Source: a virus
Length of the DNA: 23,680 bases
Virus record (IMG/VR): IMGVR_UViG_3300020446_000080
Location: 1 to 23,680 of that record
Reading direction: 5' to 3' (one strand)
Shown: piece by piece, positions 3,001 through 21,741 of the stretch
How positions within the stretch are numbered: position 1 is the stretch's first letter
Layout: the number at the start of each line of letters is the position of its first letter
Translations under genes and position numbers: made by a program
Notes under the pieces: generated by a model
Told to the model about the DNA's origin: nothing
The model's database searches: none
What the model saw: only the letters and a program-made list of their open reading frames with translations

Positions 3001-3726
3001 TCATCTGTGGATAGAATGAAGAGAGAAAGAGAACTGTCTTCGGAATTAGCTCGTGCTTTTACAGGCATTACCGAAATGCCCATTGAACCAACTGGTTTAA
3101 AGTTCAGAGGTTACGAGCTTGCTGAAGCTAGAAAAAATGCAAACAATATATTTACAGCGGTTTCAAACAGAGCTAACGCAACACCACAAGATTTTATAAA
3201 CGCATATAGAGCGGCTAACGAGGCAAACTTTAAAGTCCAACGAGAACTTTACAACGTCATTCAAGACATGAAGACCCTTGGCTTGAGCGACAGACAAATT
3301 AGAAAACAGTTGAAAGCAGCAAGAATCAGTGGTTCTGGTTTAAGCAAAGTACGCAGAGGAAAGTTTGACCCTGTAGATATTAGTCAAACTGTTAACAAAA
3401 ATATCCGTGACAATGAATTAAGATCCGTATTTCCACGGAAAGAGCTTCTCGCTATTAGAAAAGAGTATCGCAACAAACCTCTGGCGGTGGAAACAAAAGA
3501 ACCTCAACCTGAAGTATCAGTCGAGCCAGTACAACAACAACCAGTTGCAGCAACCGCAACTCCTCCGGCGGTAGCGCAAGCGGGGGCCGCTCCTGCCCAA
3601 ACAACGGCGGCTCCCGCACTTTCTTCACAACCACAGAACAGTGGTGGTATAATGTCGTTTCTAAGTAGCGGCAACCCGATAGACGCAATAAAGAACTTAC
3701 AAATATTTCAGAGGGCACAACAATGA
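1..3726 (+). CDS. Large virion protein, probably internal/ejection protein (5' end outside window)
   Basis: The frame is open from the first base, so the gene starts upstream; the GTG at 10 is only the first possible start in the window. At least 1,241 codons are visible. The protein is mostly polar and looks helical, with a short hydrophobic stretch near residues 48-70 (counted from the GTG) and a Pro/Gln/Ala-rich segment at about 1160-1213 before a 25-residue end. I see no catalytic motif. Its size, low-complexity tail and place directly before the lysozyme (ATGA overlap, so translationally coupled) fit the large internal or DNA-ejection proteins of marine phages. That role is inferred from context and length, not from a recognised domain; a tail-associated structural protein is also possible. 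Confidence 0.7.
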   Translation, partial: ADAVVATDGITTIGDFFEGGPTQTNQEIGLSGREEALRRLGNKLKVGFETGTIATVAPVAIAGTVATTGKVLTETPILREAVRGTATGVRSAGRKVSEGLQNIEARRALGQQQNIVANTLADISSVFRYRGFMPEEVAEARLLVTGQTDAIIKTAKNILGSMDKEINKVLKEADKVSNGASPLTKQSMFNNIEEFMTAPTQQMRDRAIAELPDNVAEQAKNMRGLIQSLNKNVLESDFLKRMDDLNPKESARLRGEINKNINTYLRRRYQSFEVKNYTPTNEAFEKGVAGFQQSPAATLEELSKIINKTADPAERQDLLRQFGMRETMSPELDKGLIFEFVDPSNITREAAERAARNFLQNNTRKVGSGKLGNSSRVADHRINAKLFANRANLPKFKRELLGEITDPKESFLGTVADLAEFKAVDDYFSRIRLLATQRKADGSLANPGIAQLFRDTTQMSKAEKDDLIEAGYKILDADTTPQGTKLKLDEGDFGSLRGFAVPDKISQDLTRLVIGDQGVLGNAIRSTYSGFLRVKGATQFGKTVLSPITQLRNVTTASLFALAQGNIGRGANLGESVRLVYDNLFTGVAPEQAARTFSELQELGIIGTQAQLRELQDLIQKGFGYGVEEINGIPVGRKFGSKFTDNQLGAFVGNLGKKAENLYQAGDDIWKIYNFDFELNKLKNAYRKAGKNDSEIIADLVQRRGITVTGEETAERLLREEAARIVRNTVPNYNMAPEAIRTLRRAPVGNFIAFPYEILRTGANTIARGVDELASEIPEIRQIGLRRLTGAITTFGALPAGMSALAYELSGVSEEKMKAYQRSLAPSWEKNARLLPTGIDKETGLPTYINYSYSNPYDMLEKIAIAAINGAEEGRLQGKSGAEITLKAANDSLAELFAPFTEEAIITAKIRDVLDPATDVIGFRQAGQLTGGRGGQTQTGARVYNPEDSVGDKFGKSFLHVLDGLLPSVIPVDVRSGELEASRFARGFVNGLNLEETVGISSVDRMKRERELSSELARAFTGITEMPIEPTGLKFRGYELAEARKNANNIFTAVSNRANATPQDFINAYRAANEANFKVQRELYNVIQDMKTLGLSDRQIRKQLKAARISGSGLSKVRRGKFDPVDISQTVNKNIRDNELRSVFPRKELLAIRKEYRNKPLAVETKEPQPEVSVEPVQQQPVAATATPPAVAQAGAAPAQTTAAPALSSQPQNSGGIMSFLSSGNPIDAIKNLQIFQRAQQ

Positions 3727-4184
3727 AATCAGCAACCATAGATCAGTTACGTCAGGAGCTTGCCTCTGACGAGGGCTGCAAGTACGAAATATATTTGGAC
3801 CACCTAAATTTGCCAAGTTTTGGAATTGGTCACCTCATAAAAAAGGATGACCCTGAGTACGGCAAACCTGTTGGTACAGTCATTGAACAGGAACGTGTGG
3901 ACAACGTGTTTAAATTGGACATCGCTATTACACTTGAGGATTGTCACCGTCTGTACCCAGACTGGGATGACCTGCCAGAAGAATGTCAGCTTATCATTGC
4001 AAACATGATGTTCAATCTGGGGTATCCTCGTCTGTCAAAGTTTGTCGGAATGAAGGCAGGGGTAGACGCACGGAACTTCAATGAAGCAGCAGATCAGATG
4101 GTCGACTCGAAGTGGTATACGCAGGTGCCGAACCGCGCACGTCGTTTGGTAGCAAGGATGAGGGCACTGGCAGATGGAGAGTAA
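3723..4184 (+). CDS. Endolysin, T4-type lysozyme (glycoside hydrolase 24)
   Basis: This 153-residue protein would cleave the glycan strands of host peptidoglycan at the end of infection. The N-terminal segment aligns with T4 lysozyme: E17, D26 and S32 fall exactly where T4 has its catalytic triad E11, D20 and T26, followed by the FGIGH motif at 33-37. Ser replacing Thr at the third position is conservative. There is no signal peptide or membrane anchor, so it would need a holin or similar for access. Its ATG overlaps the stop of the large virion gene (ATGA), and its own stop lies inside the next small gene. The length is close to the roughly 160 residues usual for the family. Confidence 0.9.
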   Translation: MKSATIDQLRQELASDEGCKYEIYLDHLNLPSFGIGHLIKKDDPEYGKPVGTVIEQERVDNVFKLDIAITLEDCHRLYPDWDDLPEECQLIIANMMFNLGYPRLSKFVGMKAGVDARNFNEAADQMVDSKWYTQVPNRARRLVARMRALADGE

Positions 4185-4341
4185 GGAACACTGCTCACCC
4201 CGCTGCCCACGGTGTCAGGGTAATCTCAAGACAGTTTATGTACACGGACACGAACAATGTGTTACATGTGGTCAGATAATCGATGACTGCTGTCAAGGAG
4301 AAGTAGCATGCGAACCAAGAACCCAGTCGCAAGAAGCCTGA
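4174..4341 (+). CDS. Small zinc-ribbon protein
   Basis: A 55-residue protein with two CxxC knuckles: C11-P-R-C14 and C29-V-T-C32, with extra cysteines at 7, 39, 40 and 46. The spacing is that of a zinc ribbon, so it probably binds one Zn ion and may contact nucleic acid or protein. It starts within the last codons of the lysozyme gene and overlaps the following arfA-like gene by 34 bases, so the three look translationally coupled. No strong ribosome binding site is seen. The target and role are unknown; zinc-ribbon microproteins next to lysis genes are common in marine phages. Confidence 0.7.
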   Translation: MESKEHCSPRCPRCQGNLKTVYVHGHEQCVTCGQIIDDCCQGEVACEPRTQSQEA

Positions 4342-4484
4342 AACTACGACGATTTAGGCTCAAAATAGTCAAACCCCGCAAAGGTAAGGGGTCTTACACA
4401 AGGAAGGGCAAGTCCCTTCCTTTTTCTATGTGCTTGTTTTTACTAAATAAAAACATCGATTCTCAGGGCCTTCAGCAACGATAG
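4308..4484 (+). CDS. arfA: ArfA-like alternative ribosome-rescue factor with in-frame terminator
   Basis: In bacteria ArfA enters ribosomes stalled on mRNAs without a stop codon and recruits release factor RF2 to free the peptide. Residues 25-35 read KGKGSYTRKGK and match the conserved E. coli ArfA block KGKGSYMRKGK. Upstream, N5, F16, R17 and K22 align without gaps to E. coli N14, F25, R26 and K31. The start is clear: AAGGAG lies seven bases before the ATG. The nominal product has 58 residues, but a strong intrinsic terminator (4400-4425) lies within codons 31-40, so most transcripts should end near codon 39 without a stop. Beyond it comes a hydrophobic run (MCLFLL at 41-46), like the hydrophobic C-terminus of full-length E. 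coli ArfA. It is the last gene of the late operon. The family match is strong; activity is inferred. Confidence 0.85.
   Translation: MRTKNPVARSLKLRRFRLKIVKPRKGKGSYTRKGKSLPFSMCLFLLNKNIDSQGLQQR
4400..4425 (+). terminator. Intrinsic terminator inside arfA; end of late operon
   Basis: A perfect 9-bp stem (4400-4408 pairing with 4414-4422, arms AAGGAAGGG and CCCTTCCTT) closes a 5-nt loop and runs into TTTTT at 4421-4425. It has all the marks of a rho-independent terminator on the plus strand. It sits inside the arfA frame, 57 bases before the TAG at 4482-4484. The stem could also be cut by RNase III, as in E. coli arfA. A second, purely A+T inverted repeat (4436-4442 with 4448-4454) follows and may serve either strand. 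Confidence 0.85.
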
Positions 4485-4869: not shown

Positions 4870-6744
4870 TTACTCCACCTCCCCCCAGTTATCTACGATT
4901 GCAGCATCAACCTCAAAGGGTATGTTTAAATTAGGAACGCAAGTTGTCATGATTTCGACTATCCGGTCCGATTGTTCCTGACTCTCGATGTTGAAACAAA
5001 GTTCGTCATGCACCGTTAACATGGGAAGCAATCCCTCTGCATGGCAATCAACCATCGCCTTCTTGGTCTGGTCGGCACTTGATCCTTGGATCAGCCTGTT
5101 GAGTGCCTTGTATGTAAAGGCACGTTTGATAGCGGCCCTTCCACCATACTCTTTCGCTGCTTCCTCTAACGGTAATGCTTTATGATAACCGTATGATTTT
5201 GGCTGCCACATGTCAAACCTACACTTACGGCCCAAGCATGTTCGGATATGTCCTATAGTTTGTGCCCTGTCCATAGCAAAGTCAGCGATGCCTTTTACAA
5301 ACGGCACCTTATCATGGTACTGACCTAACAACTCTTTGGCTTCTTCTTCTGTGATATCCATAACCCCAGCCAGCTTACCACGACCCATACCGTACATGAT
5401 ACCAAGGTTCACAGTCTTTGCCTGTTTGCGACTGATACCAGCAATATCCGCCACCATCTGGTGAAAGTCAGCCTCACCCTCGTTATACATTTTTACAACG
5501 TCGTCTATTTGTGGATGACGGTGTGCGCCTTTTAGTGTAGAACAGTAGTGGGCAAGCCAGCGTGGTTCTTGTGAGGCGTAGTCAAAAGAACCCCACTTAC
5601 ATCCCTCTTCTGGGATGAACAAACCACGAATCATCGCTTTGATTTCTGGGTCTCTTGCCGGGATTTGCTGGAGGTTTGGGTTGGACGAAGAAAATCGTCC
5701 TGTGACTGTGCCCCCTTCATCTGAACGAAGAGGATTAAAATCACAATGGATACGACCGTTATGCGAATGCTGAAGTATAGTCTCAACAAAAGTTGTGTTG
5801 GCTTTGTTAAACTCACGAAGGCGCAGAATCTTTTGCGCAAGTGGGTGGTCATGGTTCGCAAGAAACTGTTTTGTAAAGGCAGGAGCATTCGTCTTTTCTG
5901 TCCTATTGTACGTCAGCCCAACGGCATCGAACGCCTTTGCTATAGATGTAGCGACCCACGGTTCGACATTGACTTGGGTAAGATCCTTTATTTCCGCTAA
6001 CAAGACATCTTCACGTTGCTTTAAATCTTTCTGCACACGTTCAGCTTTGTCAATGTCAACCCGCACACCGCGAGTTTTCATGTCCAAAAGAACTGGCAAC
6101 AGGCTTGACTCTAGATCAAATATGCCTGTGCATTCGTCGCTTACAAGGTCAGCCCGTAACCTATCCCACAGACGTAAGGTGACAGACGCATCTTGCTCTG
6201 CATACCTGCCCACAAATGTGGAGTCCAGCTTCCACATCTCAGCCTTTGGGTCCACGCCATACATATCTGCCGCAGACCGTAACATCTTTTCGTTCTTCCA
6301 TTCGCCCAGATATTCACCGGACAAAGAGTTCAGGTTGTAATATCTTCTGTGTTCGTTCAGAAGTGGTGCGGCTATCATTGTATCGATAATCTTACCCTGC
6401 ACTTCGATACCTGCCCAGCGCAGCCAACCAAGGTCGTACATACAGTTGTGCATTACCTTTTCTATGTGAGGTGTGGCTAACTGTTTTTTCAGCCAGTTTA
6501 CCACAGTTTTTTCTGGTAGGTTTCCTGACTTGTGCCTTACAGGGAAGTACCCAACAAAGTCTCCAGCAGCAACCGCATACCCTATAATATACCCGTCATC
6601 ACGACACCAACCTGGGCCTAACGTAGTTAAGTTTGGGTCCTTTGTTTCCAAGTCTATAGATATCCTGTCGTAGACTGTCAGGTCTGGAAAGCTTGACGGC
6701 GGTAACCAGTCTTCATTTTCTGGATCAAACAAATCAACTTTCAT
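4870..6744 (-). CDS. polA: DNA polymerase I (family A) with 3'-5' exonuclease domain, Leu762 type
   Basis: Replicative phage polymerase of 624 residues. The N-terminal part is a proofreading exonuclease: DxE at D31/E33, N100 with D104, and YAEQD ending at D185. There is no 5'-3' exonuclease domain, as usual in phages. The polymerase part has the TGRFSSSNPNLQQIP block at about 348-362, motif A with D388 (DYASQEPR), motif B (RKQAKTVNLGIMYG, K443) and motif C HDE at 579-581. The residue aligned with E. coli F762 is L447. The frame extends six codons further to a GTG at 6762, but GGGGAG ten bases before the ATG at 6744 and overlap with the upstream stop favour the ATG. All catalytic residues look intact. 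Confidence 0.95.
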   Translation of the reverse strand: MKVDLFDPENEDWLPPSSFPDLTVYDRISIDLETKDPNLTTLGPGWCRDDGYIIGYAVAAGDFVGYFPVRHKSGNLPEKTVVNWLKKQLATPHIEKVMHNCMYDLGWLRWAGIEVQGKIIDTMIAAPLLNEHRRYYNLNSLSGEYLGEWKNEKMLRSAADMYGVDPKAEMWKLDSTFVGRYAEQDASVTLRLWDRLRADLVSDECTGIFDLESSLLPVLLDMKTRGVRVDIDKAERVQKDLKQREDVLLAEIKDLTQVNVEPWVATSIAKAFDAVGLTYNRTEKTNAPAFTKQFLANHDHPLAQKILRLREFNKANTTFVETILQHSHNGRIHCDFNPLRSDEGGTVTGRFSSSNPNLQQIPARDPEIKAMIRGLFIPEEGCKWGSFDYASQEPRWLAHYCSTLKGAHRHPQIDDVVKMYNEGEADFHQMVADIAGISRKQAKTVNLGIMYGMGRGKLAGVMDITEEEAKELLGQYHDKVPFVKGIADFAMDRAQTIGHIRTCLGRKCRFDMWQPKSYGYHKALPLEEAAKEYGGRAAIKRAFTYKALNRLIQGSSADQTKKAMVDCHAEGLLPMLTVHDELCFNIESQEQSDRIVEIMTTCVPNLNIPFEVDAAIVDNWGEVE

Positions 6745-18831: not shown

Positions 18832-19162
18832 GAACCGTGTTTCAGAAGGGATGCCAGACTGTTATCTGTGCATTGATGGCGTACCCGTATGGGTTGAATT
18901 AAAAATAACAAAAAATAACGCAATCGAGATACAACCCTCACAGATTGCATGGCATACCAGCCATTCTCGCTGTGGTGGTGTAAGTTTTTTTCTTGCTTAC
19001 AGCCCCTCTGAGAGGCTTGCTTTTTTATTTGACGGGGGTTTAGCAGCCCAGATCCAAGGTGCGCGGTTCGATGACCTGCGGCCTGCGGCCTTATTCTCTG
19101 GTGATCTAGATTCCTGTGCCTCGAACCTGCGGCCTGCGGCCTGCGCCCTCTGGTCTCTATAA
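18746..19162 (+). CDS. VRR-NUC domain nuclease with repeat-derived tail
   Basis: 138 residues. PD-(D/E)XK signature of the VRR-NUC family: E29 in the first helix, GMPD at 35-38 (D38), V-E51-L-K53 (VELK) and Q66. In phages these small nucleases are placed with replication or packaging genes and may cut branched or terminal DNA. It begins 86 bases inside terS, with GGGGAAA upstream, so it is probably co-expressed with it. The conserved domain ends near residue 98; residues 110-138 are encoded partly by two copies of the GC-rich repeat, giving LRPAA at 111-115 and again at 129-133. Confidence 0.75.
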   Translation: MPKLLNTEKKLWLSLKKSLPKKTHCQRIENRVSEGMPDCYLCIDGVPVWVELKITKNNAIEIQPSQIAWHTSHSRCGGVSFFLAYSPSERLAFLFDGGLAAQIQGARFDDLRPAALFSGDLDSCASNLRPAACALWSL

Positions 19163-19193
19163 AAAAGTGGGTCGCCTGCGGCCTGCGCCTGCG
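19075..19193 (+). repeat. GC-rich repeat copies 1-3 (CCTGCGGCCTGCGGCCT)
   Basis: Copies at 19075-19091, 19126-19147 (extended by one unit) and 19174-19193 (variant), all in the same orientation. The unit CCTGCGG is repeated within each copy and can fold as GGCC-TGC-GGCC. The first two lie within the end of the VRR-NUC frame; the third forms the loop of the terminator at 19161-19198. Confidence 0.85.
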
Positions 19194-19198
19194 ACCCA
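19161..19198 (-). terminator. Intrinsic terminator of the minus-strand island
   Basis: Minus strand: TGGGTCGC (19198-19191) pairs with GCGACCCA (19175-19168) across a 15-nt loop made of the GC-rich repeat, followed by C and TTTTTT (19166-19161). It would stop transcripts of the GP88-like gene from running into the nuclease and terS genes. Another dyad, TGCCCAG/CTGGGCA (19242-19274), lies just after that gene's stop. Confidence 0.75.
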
Positions 19199-19282
19199 TA
19201 GTTATTGGAGAATCTAAAATGATCATGATTAGAATAAGAAATGCCCAGACTGTTGTCAATAATCAGCCTGGGCAATGTGCTC

Positions 19283-19957
19283 CTAGTGTTTCGGATAGCA
19301 AACTGTTTTAACTTCACGCGACCAGCAAGCGCGGCAATTGCCACAGTAACCAAGGTCAATCTTACCAATCTGTTTTTCTTTCTTGGCGGTTTCGTATTCG
19401 TCATGTGTTATCATTTCACCGTTCTTTTTTGTCCGGTATGCTTCGCACATTTTGCCGACAGGGGCTTTATATCCGGTGATAACTGCGCTTGAATGCTCCC
19501 AGCTTTCAGGCGGGTTATCGTCAACCATTGTTGCGCTGTATCTTACAACAGCGTTGTCTGGTAAAGCTTCAATCTTCAAAGCTTCCTGCCAGAATTTCCT
19601 TTCTTTTGTGGGGATCCAGTGTTTTTTGTTTGGCGTTAATCTGCACACTGCAATAATTTTAAGGCAATGTGCAACGCTTCGCACGTCGCCAGAATCGAAC
19701 CAACGCATCGTATCTTTACGGGACTTGTTCAACAATGCTGCCATATCAACGGCAAAATTTGCAGAGTTAAGAAAGTCTAGTCTGGCCTGCATGGCATTCT
19801 GAACAACAGGCCACGGATAAGCCCCCTTCATTGCGTAGCAGTCAAAACAGACTGAGCCTTTAATCTTCGCTAGCTTTTGACCCGTAACGCAACCAAAAGC
19901 AGATATATTGAAACTGTCCCCTGGCATTTTTTTGGGTTTTGATAACATAGCAACCAT
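19283..19957 (-). CDS. GP88-like phage protein with cysteine clusters
   Basis: 224 residues resembling the Gene product 88 family first named in mycobacteriophages: MPGDSFNISAFGC near 11-23, then C37-F-D-C40-YAMKGAY, and a C-terminal CGNCRAC (C205, C208, C211) with C220. The cysteines could bind zinc or an iron-sulfur cluster; a relationship to radical-SAM-like folds has been considered, but no function is established. AGGAG nine bases before the ATG fixes the start. It has its own promoter (19989-20017) and terminator (19161-19198), so it is a monocistronic unit at the edge of the island. The family name is from memory. Confidence 0.75.
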   Translation of the reverse strand: MVAMLSKPKKMPGDSFNISAFGCVTGQKLAKIKGSVCFDCYAMKGAYPWPVVQNAMQARLDFLNSANFAVDMAALLNKSRKDTMRWFDSGDVRSVAHCLKIIAVCRLTPNKKHWIPTKERKFWQEALKIEALPDNAVVRYSATMVDDNPPESWEHSSAVITGYKAPVGKMCEAYRTKKNGEMITHDEYETAKKEKQIGKIDLGYCGNCRACWSREVKTVCYPKH

Positions 19958-19988
19958 GTTTTTATTCTCCTATTGTTATAGTCTCTTT

Positions 19989-20017
19989 ATTGTATGGGAT
20001 ATTCCCACATTATGCAA
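19989..20017 (-). promoter_or_regulatory. Promoter of the GP88-like gene with GGGAATATCCC operator
   Basis: TTGCAT (20017-20012), 17-bp spacer, TACAAT (19994-19989). The spacer holds TGTGGGAATATCCCA, with TGGGA/TCCCA arms forming the most complete dyad of the four related promoters. Its position in the spacer would allow a bound protein to block RNA polymerase. Confidence 0.7.
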
Positions 20018-20025
20018 GCCACAAT

Positions 20026-20082
20026 CCTGCGGCCTGCGGCCTTGTTCTTTTTATGTAATCCTGCGGCCTGCGGCCTGCGGCT
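20026..20082 (+). repeat. GC-rich repeat copies 4 and 5
   Basis: CCTGCGGCCTGCGGCCT at 20026-20042 and an extended copy at 20060-20082, both preceded by AAT and in the same orientation as copies 1-3. Copy 5 is followed by CGCGCTTTATGTATA, a flank shared with copy 6. They lie in the gap between the GP88-like promoter and the upstream terminator. Confidence 0.85.
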
Positions 20083-20097
20083 CCGCGCTTTATGTAT

Positions 20098-20134
20098 AAA
20101 AAAAATAAAACTGGATCAGCTTGCGCTGATCCAG
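20098..20134 (-). terminator. Intrinsic terminator with GCAA tetraloop
   Basis: Minus strand: CTGGATCAGC (20134-20125), loop GCAA, GCTGATCCAG (20120-20111), then TTTTATTTTTTTT. The perfect 10-bp stem with a GNRA loop and U-tract begins five bases after the stop of the 63-residue gene. It is nearly the same hairpin as at 20356-20381, with a compensatory pair change. Confidence 0.9.
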
Positions 20135-20139
20135 TCTGA

Positions 20140-20331
20140 TCATCCATGCAGAATATCACTCAATTCCCCATCCCAGTAATCATCGTTCGCGCATTCGATT
20201 GCATCGCGCGGGGACATGCCAGCCTCGAAGTAATCACGCCAGCTTGCATCCGCTAGGTCGTGAATAGTAAATGGAAAGCCAGTCTTGTGTAATTCTCGGC
20301 TACATTCTTTTTCAAACTCTTCATATGTCAT
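20140..20331 (-). CDS. Small acidic hypothetical protein
   Basis: 63 residues, acidic, with two predicted helices (YEEFEKECSRELHK and SPRDAIECANDDYW). AAAAGGA lies upstream of the ATG, just after the hairpin at 20356-20381. It ends directly before a strong terminator, so it is the last gene of the transcription unit starting at 20625-20653. No family recognised. Confidence 0.6.
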   Translation of the reverse strand: MTYEEFEKECSRELHKTGFPFTIHDLADASWRDYFEAGMSPRDAIECANDDYWDGELSDILHG

Positions 20332-20355
20332 TTTCTTTTTCCTTTTATAAACGAA

Positions 20356-20381
20356 ACTGGGTCAGCTTGCGCTGACCCAGT
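20356..20381 (-). promoter_or_regulatory. Intercistronic GCAA hairpin
   Basis: Minus strand: ACTGGGTCAGC (20381-20371), loop GCAA, GCTGACCCAGT (20366-20356). The 11-bp perfect stem follows the stop of the 56-residue gene by 13 bases. It is followed by TTTCGTTT, a broken U-tract, and then by the ribosome binding site of the next gene, so it may be a leaky terminator or a stabiliser of upstream mRNA. Confidence 0.8.
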
Positions 20382-20394
20382 ACGGGAGAAACTC

Positions 20395-20565
20395 CTAATC
20401 ACTGATAAGTAAAACCTTGCAGTCCTCTTTCATGAAGAAAGTAACTTCATGCTTGTCTGTTCTGACGACTAGCAATCTTGTAGGCTCTTTCCCGTCCCTT
20501 TTTAGCCACGTTGTTTCAATTGTAACGTCTGCACCGTCAGTGAATATGTTTGTTGTATTACTCAT
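20395..20565 (-). CDS. Small hypothetical protein
   Basis: 56 residues: NIFTDGADVTIETTW, KRDGKEPTRLLVVRTDKHEVTF and FMKEDCKVLLIS suggest a three- to four-stranded beta sheet with no recognised family. AGGAG seven bases before the ATG fixes the start. The leader between promoter (20625-20653) and ATG is about 55 bases and holds two inverted repeats. Followed by the GCAA hairpin at 20356-20381. Confidence 0.65.
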   Translation of the reverse strand: MSNTTNIFTDGADVTIETTWLKRDGKEPTRLLVVRTDKHEVTFFMKEDCKVLLISD

Positions 20566-20584
20566 TTTTTTCTCCTAGTGTTGT

Positions 20585-20616
20585 TACCCATTTTGGGTAG
20601 TTATCCCCATGTGGGG
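20585..20616 (-). promoter_or_regulatory. Two inverted repeats in the leader of the 56-residue gene
   Basis: TACCCA-TTT-TGGGTA (20585-20599) and CCCCA-TG-TGGGG (20605-20616) lie side by side between the promoter at 20625 and the ribosome binding site. As RNA they could form two hairpins; as DNA they could be operator half-sites. Their CCCA/TGGG cores resemble the box in the nearby promoter spacers. Confidence 0.55.
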
Positions 20617-20624
20617 CTGGTTCC

Positions 20625-20653
20625 AGTATATAGGATTATCCCATAAGAAACAA
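20625..20653 (-). promoter_or_regulatory. Promoter of the 56- and 63-residue genes, with GGGATA box
   Basis: TTGTTT (20653-20648), 17-bp spacer, TATACT (20630-20625). The spacer reads CTTATGGGATAATCCTA and carries the shared TATGGGATAATCC element. Hexamers are weaker at -35 but strong at -10. Confidence 0.65.
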
Positions 20654-20671
20654 GATATTTTTTTCCTTAGT

Positions 20672-20724
20672 CCTGCGACCTGCGGCCTCGCGCTTTATAT
20701 ATCTAGTCCTGCGGCCTGCGGCCT
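20672..20724 (+). repeat. GC-rich repeat copies 6 and 7
   Basis: CCTGCGACCTGCGGCCT at 20672-20688 (one substitution) and CCTGCGGCCTGCGGCCT at 20708-20724. Both are preceded by AGT; copy 6 is followed by CGCGCTTTATATAT, close to the flank of copy 5. They lie in the gap between the promoter at 20625 and the end of the upstream gene. Confidence 0.85.
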
Positions 20725-20737
20725 GGCCCCGTATATA

Positions 20738-20751
20738 ACAGGCGCGCCTGT
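20738..20751. repeat. 14-bp perfect palindrome ACAGGCGCGCCTGT
   Basis: A perfect dyad just before the hairpin at 20759-20774, outside any gene. It could be a protein-binding site or a cruciform; no partner copy is seen in the window. Confidence 0.6.
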
Positions 20752-20758
20752 AAAGGAT

Positions 20759-20774
20759 GGGGGCCGCAGCCCCC
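20759..20774 (-). promoter_or_regulatory. UNCG-tetraloop hairpin after the 37-residue gene
   Basis: Minus strand GGGGGC-TGCG-GCCCCC: a 6-bp G/C stem closed by C-G around a UGCG loop, six bases after the stop codon. No U-tract follows. One of three near-identical copies in this island. Confidence 0.8.
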
Positions 20775-21493: not shown

Positions 21494-21509
21494 GGGGGCC
21501 GAAGCCCCC
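21494..21509 (-). promoter_or_regulatory. UUCG-tetraloop hairpin after the 64-residue gene
   Basis: Minus strand GGGGGC-TTCG-GCCCCC, the classic very stable cUUCGg loop, five bases after the stop codon at 21515. No U-tract follows. Second of three copies; the loop differs from the others only in its second base. Confidence 0.85.
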
Positions 21510-21723: not shown

Positions 21724-21741
21724 GGGGGGCCGCAGCCCCCC
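21724..21741 (-). promoter_or_regulatory. UNCG-tetraloop hairpin between two island genes
   Basis: Minus strand GGGGGGC-TGCG-GCCCCCC, a 7-bp stem, 14 bases after one stop codon and directly before the AAAGGA of the next gene. Because the ribosome binding site follows at once, it is unlikely to be a terminator. Confidence 0.85.

Follow-up and report, generated by a model that had tools for sequence, protein, structure and literature searches.

Does a small gene near the lysozyme gene of this virus encode the ribosome rescue factor ArfA, and is its product normally made from an mRNA that ends before the stop codon? The gene lies in the stretch of DNA analysed here (the window, a 23,680-base virus record with a GC content of 46%), in which the following features are relevant.

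3624–3653, + strand: promoter-like site TTCACA-18-TATAAT with TG before the second hexamer (11 of 12 matches), upstream of the lysozyme gene.
3723–4184, + strand: phage lysozyme gene, upstream of arfA and in the same direction (PF00959, 2.8e-5; PHROG endolysin/tail lysozyme).
4174–4341, + strand: small CxxC zinc-ribbon-like open reading frame (ORF) that overlaps the arfA start by 34 nt (weak Zn_ribbon_TFIIB match, 0.22).
4295–4300, + strand: strong Shine-Dalgarno sequence AAGGAG of arfA, read directly; it precedes the ATG by 7 nt and is conserved across the phage group.
4308–4484, + strand: arfA ORF, 58 codons to the distal stop (PF03889 match).
4320–4412, + strand: conserved ArfA core, codons 5–35 (NPVARSL...F...KGKGSYTRKGK), defined by the alignment of relatives, the PDB profile match and pN/pS.
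4400–4422, + strand: hairpin with a perfect 9-bp stem and a 5-nt loop in the arfA frame, codons 31–39 (stem scan; relatives).
4421–4427, + strand: T-tract TTTTTCT after the GC stem (terminator score d = 13.1).
4428–4484, + strand: end of the frame, with the stop codon (pN/pS 0.79; moving stop).

A sequence-only reading of the window had assigned the 58-residue translation of the ORF at 4308–4484 (MRTKNPVARSLKLRRFRLKIVKPRKGKGSYTRKGKSLPFSMCLFLLNKNIDSQGLQQR*) to the ArfA family, and profile and structure database searches agree that this membership is well supported. The product matches the Pfam ArfA family (PF03889) significantly, with 30.1 bits against a curated cut-off of 25.5. A phmmer search of PDB with the window protein returned six ArfA sequences and no other matches, and a profile built from 17 viral relatives recovered ArfA chains at ~1e-11 over 34 positions (3–36), which span the entire conserved core, with nothing else significant. 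Searching its own record with the arfA product gave 1.6e-8; the NCBIfam search gave no match, and the PHROGs search gave weak matches only, to families of unknown function.

The block KGKGSYTRKGK (residues 25–35) matches the family pattern KGKGSYxRKGK. In ArfA, this block occupies the empty mRNA channel, and the N-terminal part of the core contacts RF2. Phe 16 of phage ArfA aligns to Phe 25 of the Escherichia coli protein. On the other hand, Ala 18 of E. coli ArfA is required for release, and because its equivalent in phage ArfA is Arg/Lys (ungapped alignment by eye), activation of RF2 by the phage protein is putative. We infer that the phage protein has rescue activity.

The arfA gene is the last in its cluster, at the end of a set of virion protein and lysozyme genes, and faces convergent genes including those for DNA polymerase A and a UvrD-type helicase. 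Late expression of arfA agrees with this arrangement and is plausible from gene position alone. The zinc-ribbon-like ORF at 4174–4341 is conserved (74–96%) among relatives. The predicted promoter-like site at 3624–3653, which has similar counterparts in three related loci (L002, L009, and L048), is a possible start of the unit ending in arfA. The closest named relatives by polA (45–51% identity) are phages of SAR11 or have their host given as Gammaproteobacteria or unknown, and a DNA-level search against named phages matched polA only.

The hairpin at 4400–4422 has the sequence AAGGAAGGG-CAAGT-CCCTTCCTT. Hairpin and T-tract together (4400–4427, codons 31–40) are in frame and precede the stop codon at 4482–4484, in accordance with the sequence-only reading. 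The transcript is predicted to end at about 4426–4428, and a peptide made from RNA ended at the T-tract would contain about 39–40 residues; the earlier estimate was about 38, and the accompanying statement that the truncated peptide retains the conserved block (residues 25–35) holds. Most transcripts of the gene probably do not extend into 4428–4484.

By a strict terminator score (d > 0), the arfA hairpin is the better of two + strand sites in the whole window. A lax terminator scan over 1.6 kb found one such site versus 1.2 expected, which is ordinary, and single-sequence folding of 61 nt gave z = -1.4, which is not significant alone. Random synonymous recoding equalled the strength of the stem in ~1% of trials for the window and in 0–1.7% for its relatives. 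Because the lax scan calls the site unremarkable, the case for the hairpin rests on comparison.

Several repeated elements were observed elsewhere in the window. Two near-identical long perfect hairpins of the type CTGGATCAGC-TTGC-GCTGATCCAG (20103–20135 and 20349–20381), with T-tracts on the - strand, are the strongest terminator-like sites of the window. Seven scattered, mostly intergenic copies of a CCTGCGGCCTGCGGCCT repeat are found at 19074–20738, and three copies of a GGGGGCCGCAGCCCCC palindrome are located at 20759–20774, 21494–21509, and 21725–21740.

For the comparison, a protein search yielded 52 viral loci and a polymerase search yielded 80. L047–L049 and L051 were rejected as arfA matches (downstream sequence without arfA), as was L052 (a short match to query residues 35–58 only). 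The phage-group set comprised 17 members, among which 14 different core sequences occur. Purifying selection acts on the ArfA core (pN/pS 0.16 for codons 2–30, from 12 sequences), and the value downstream of the hairpin is 0.79; the group sequences share kinship, and these figures represent a descriptive pattern with no formal test. The stem, 9–11 bp long in the phage group (11 in some relatives), is kept across the 17 relatives, so that no homologue within this phage group is without the hairpin, and the T-tract is also conserved. Every base is invariant in codons 32, 33, and 37, which are fully paired in the stem. Two changes were seen in codon 38, each converting G-C to G-U, and the amino-acid-altering changes in codons 35 and 36 are all placed in the loop.

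After the hairpin, the peptide is wholly different in one subgroup (L014 and L016–L019), and the position of the stop shifts among relatives, giving ORFs of 56, 58, 72, 88, and 114 aa. Tails such as MCLFLLNKN..., MWLFLLIFN..., and MCFHHAHICRRQ... vary in length, and the hydrophobic run is missing from some relatives. A hydrophobic read-through tail had been proposed to belong to the retained circuit; because its sequence is not conserved and its length varies, the tail instead looks unselected as protein. The evolutionary evidence supports a selected product that ends at the hairpin. The gene might be an ordinary one, translated to its stop codon as a full 58-residue protein with a hairpin that has no effect, as the in-frame stop at 4482–4484 and the nonsignificant lax scan would allow. 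We consider this highly improbable, given that the stem is conserved while the stop position and the tail are not, and that the hairpin is associated with arfA and recurs in other arfA clusters (see below).

The association is seen in the gap between the lysozyme gene and polA. The hairpin is present in the window and in 5/5 syntenic relatives that carry arfA, and a hairpin of any kind meeting the same criteria occurs in 1/35 relatives whose gap lacks arfA; the test covered the 2.5 kb next to polA only, many viral contigs are fragments, and an arfA elsewhere in those genomes would escape it. In L048 and similar relatives, gene and hairpin are both missing while the flanking genes on both sides are present. 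Since arfA-less syntenic relatives lack it, the hairpin belongs to arfA and is no general feature of the operon end, which rules out a general operon terminator as its sole reason.

A related explanation is that the hairpin is a mere late-operon terminator which genome compaction has placed in the last gene, with no selected link to tmRNA; ArfA would then tolerate an internal terminator because it is able to release its own nascent chain. This would fit the position of arfA at the end of its cluster opposite convergent genes, as well as the positive terminator score, but it would account poorly for the operon ends without such a hairpin in arfA-less syntenic relatives, for the recurrence of the same placement in other arfAs with unrelated stems, and for the regulatory role of the same architecture in bacteria. 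We regard it as unlikely.

To examine the wider distribution of the hairpin, three further viral scans were added, after which the set comprised 92 distinct non-fusion viral arfAs; these form 50 clusters at a core identity of 80%. A strong in-frame stem was detected just after the motif in 10/50 clusters, and synonymous recoding rarely equalled the stems of these ten (p 0 to 0.033). The stems are unrelated in sequence, for example GACCGC/GCGGTC (L200), GGGCAGACC/GGTCTGCCC (L390), and GGACGC/GCGTCC (L295). Terminator scores are positive in about seven of the ten (the window group, L200, L390, L134, L295/L300, L368, and L191), whose hairpins look like intrinsic terminators, and negative in L199, L202, and L384, which have poor T-tracts. 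In the L295/L300 cluster, too, the peptides differ from immediately past the hairpin onwards and end at different stops (22 vs 50 residues from the motif). Clusters in which the stop codon follows shortly after the motif contained no strong hairpin (0/33; Fisher p 2e-6); longer frames give more room for stems, and the recoding test controls for frame length. As 40/50 clusters have no strong hairpin, phage ArfA does not depend on hairpin control. The positive control, Providencia chromosomal arfA, showed the expected hairpin, with a stem of 16–18 bp.

Proteins in which the ArfA core is fused to a C-terminal phrog_17747 domain of unknown function (GNYTKP...GGKGG...QWSARKAQMLA) were observed in L020–L040, L156, L174, L349, and others. 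These fusions were set apart: L028, L037, and L349 have a stem at the same place, yet with weak T-tracts, d < 0, and a conserved C-terminal domain after it. In Caulobacter phage Cr30 (L136, 2434–2596), the ArfA ORF is unannotated and its core falls between two annotated genes.

The mRNA could also be ended by RNase III cleavage at the hairpin instead of termination, with the same non-stop result. A stem of 9–11 bp is short for an RNase III substrate, and on this ground such processing appears less likely here; the window stem has 9 bp (11 in some relatives), compared with 16–18 bp in Providencia arfA, and a T-tract is present and conserved. Although the E. coli arfA hairpin is acted on by RNase III (PMC8012679) and the T-tracts of some viral hairpins are weak, we consider cleavage in the window gene quite improbable.

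In E. coli, arfA mRNA is shortened at a stem-loop within the gene (by termination or RNase III), trans-translation handles most of the product, the truncated ArfA that escapes is fully active, and only 46–48 residues are present in structures of ArfA on the ribosome (PMC8012679). The phage gene resembles E. coli ArfA (YhdL) in its conserved core with KGKGSYxRKGK, its in-frame stem-loop, and its predicted truncated product that retains the core. It differs in the predicted length of this product (~40 residues vs ~55 in E. coli), in a hairpin with a 9-bp stem located directly after the motif, in a tail that is not conserved, and in the N-terminal part (NPxAxxL vs NAIEALL). Control by tmRNA has experimental proof in E. 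coli, whereas that of the phage gene is predicted from sequence and analogy.

Similar expression has been demonstrated experimentally for BrfA of Bacillus subtilis, a rescue factor working with RF2, whose internal intrinsic terminator produces a non-stop mRNA (PMC6881298). BrfA is similar to phage arfA in this internal terminator, but it is a Gram-positive chromosomal protein of distant sequence, and its control is established by experiment whereas that of the phage gene is predicted.

Among cultured phages, g10 of Citromicrobium phage vB_CbaS-RXM is annotated as ArfA in passages of its description (PMC8953757) that do not remark on a hairpin. We found an 11-bp in-frame hairpin directly after the motif of g10, whose cluster is among the ten with a strong stem. 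RXM is a different type of phage (a 104 kb siphophage), its stem sequence is unrelated, and its T-tract is weaker than that of the window. In pelagiphage HTVC027P, gp30 is ArfA, with expression in both the early and the late phase of SAR11 infection (PMC12753301). The HTVC027P polymerase is related to that of the window (45% identity); unlike the window arfA, gp30 has a frame that stops directly after the motif and no internal hairpin.

Taken together, it is likely that the ArfA of this phage is normally translated from a transcript that lacks a stop codon and serves as a back-up rescue factor. Transcription of the unit comprising lysozyme, zinc ribbon, and arfA would end at the hairpin inside arfA, as its sequence and conservation suggest, and ribosomes would reach the RNA end after about codon 39–40. 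The peptide to this point holds the whole conserved ArfA core, and the predicted ~40-residue product would keep an equivalent core because it ends 4–5 residues past the motif. By analogy with E. coli and B. subtilis, the peptide would be tagged by host tmRNA-SmpB and degraded, and it would be released intact when trans-translation is saturated or failing. Released ArfA may then, as a member of its family, bring RF2 to further ribosomes that have stalled on truncated mRNA. The supply of ArfA would thus be low while trans-translation copes and would rise with the load of stalled ribosomes.

All 12 of the named phage records with the closest ArfAs have alphaproteobacterial hosts, and several Brevundimonas phage records already name ArfA. 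A 2024 survey reported arfA in 0/2,376 alphaproteobacterial genomes (PMC11633108). Scored with the phage-trained profile, 119/197 genomes from the order of a Pelagibacteraceae genome reach at least 41.5 bits, a strong ArfA-like match. In the Pelagibacteraceae genomes L217, L218, L220, and L228, an ArfA-like small ORF is located around 5001–5111 in a conserved SAR11 neighbourhood. In three inspected genomes, the ArfA-like gene lies among conserved chromosomal genes; its neighbours presumably include dapB and nth (names read from sequences). Pfam alone finds ArfA in 10/385 genomes of the class, and one scanned SAR11 ArfA-like protein scored 24.9 against the Pfam cut-off of 25.5. ArfA is accepted as being restricted to the beta- and gamma-proteobacteria, and the ArfA-like genes of many SAR11 genomes are relevant to this view.

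Phage ArfA is already known (RXM, PMC8953757; HTVC027P, PMC12753301), as is non-stop arfA in bacteria; a non-stop phage arfA was not encountered in a literature search restricted to open PMC papers. We tentatively raise the possibility, itself rather doubtful, that phages, including those of alphaproteobacteria, have repeatedly evolved or retained an ArfA gated by tmRNA, with the non-stop mRNA as a sensor and the rescue factor appearing only once infection or an mRNA-cutting host defence overloads trans-translation. If the non-stop reading of phage arfA is right, stop-to-stop gene calling would misplace the ends of such phage genes, phages in several unrelated lineages would carry a rescue factor together with its non-stop-mRNA control, and infection could be tied in a testable way to mRNA decay and ribosome rescue.
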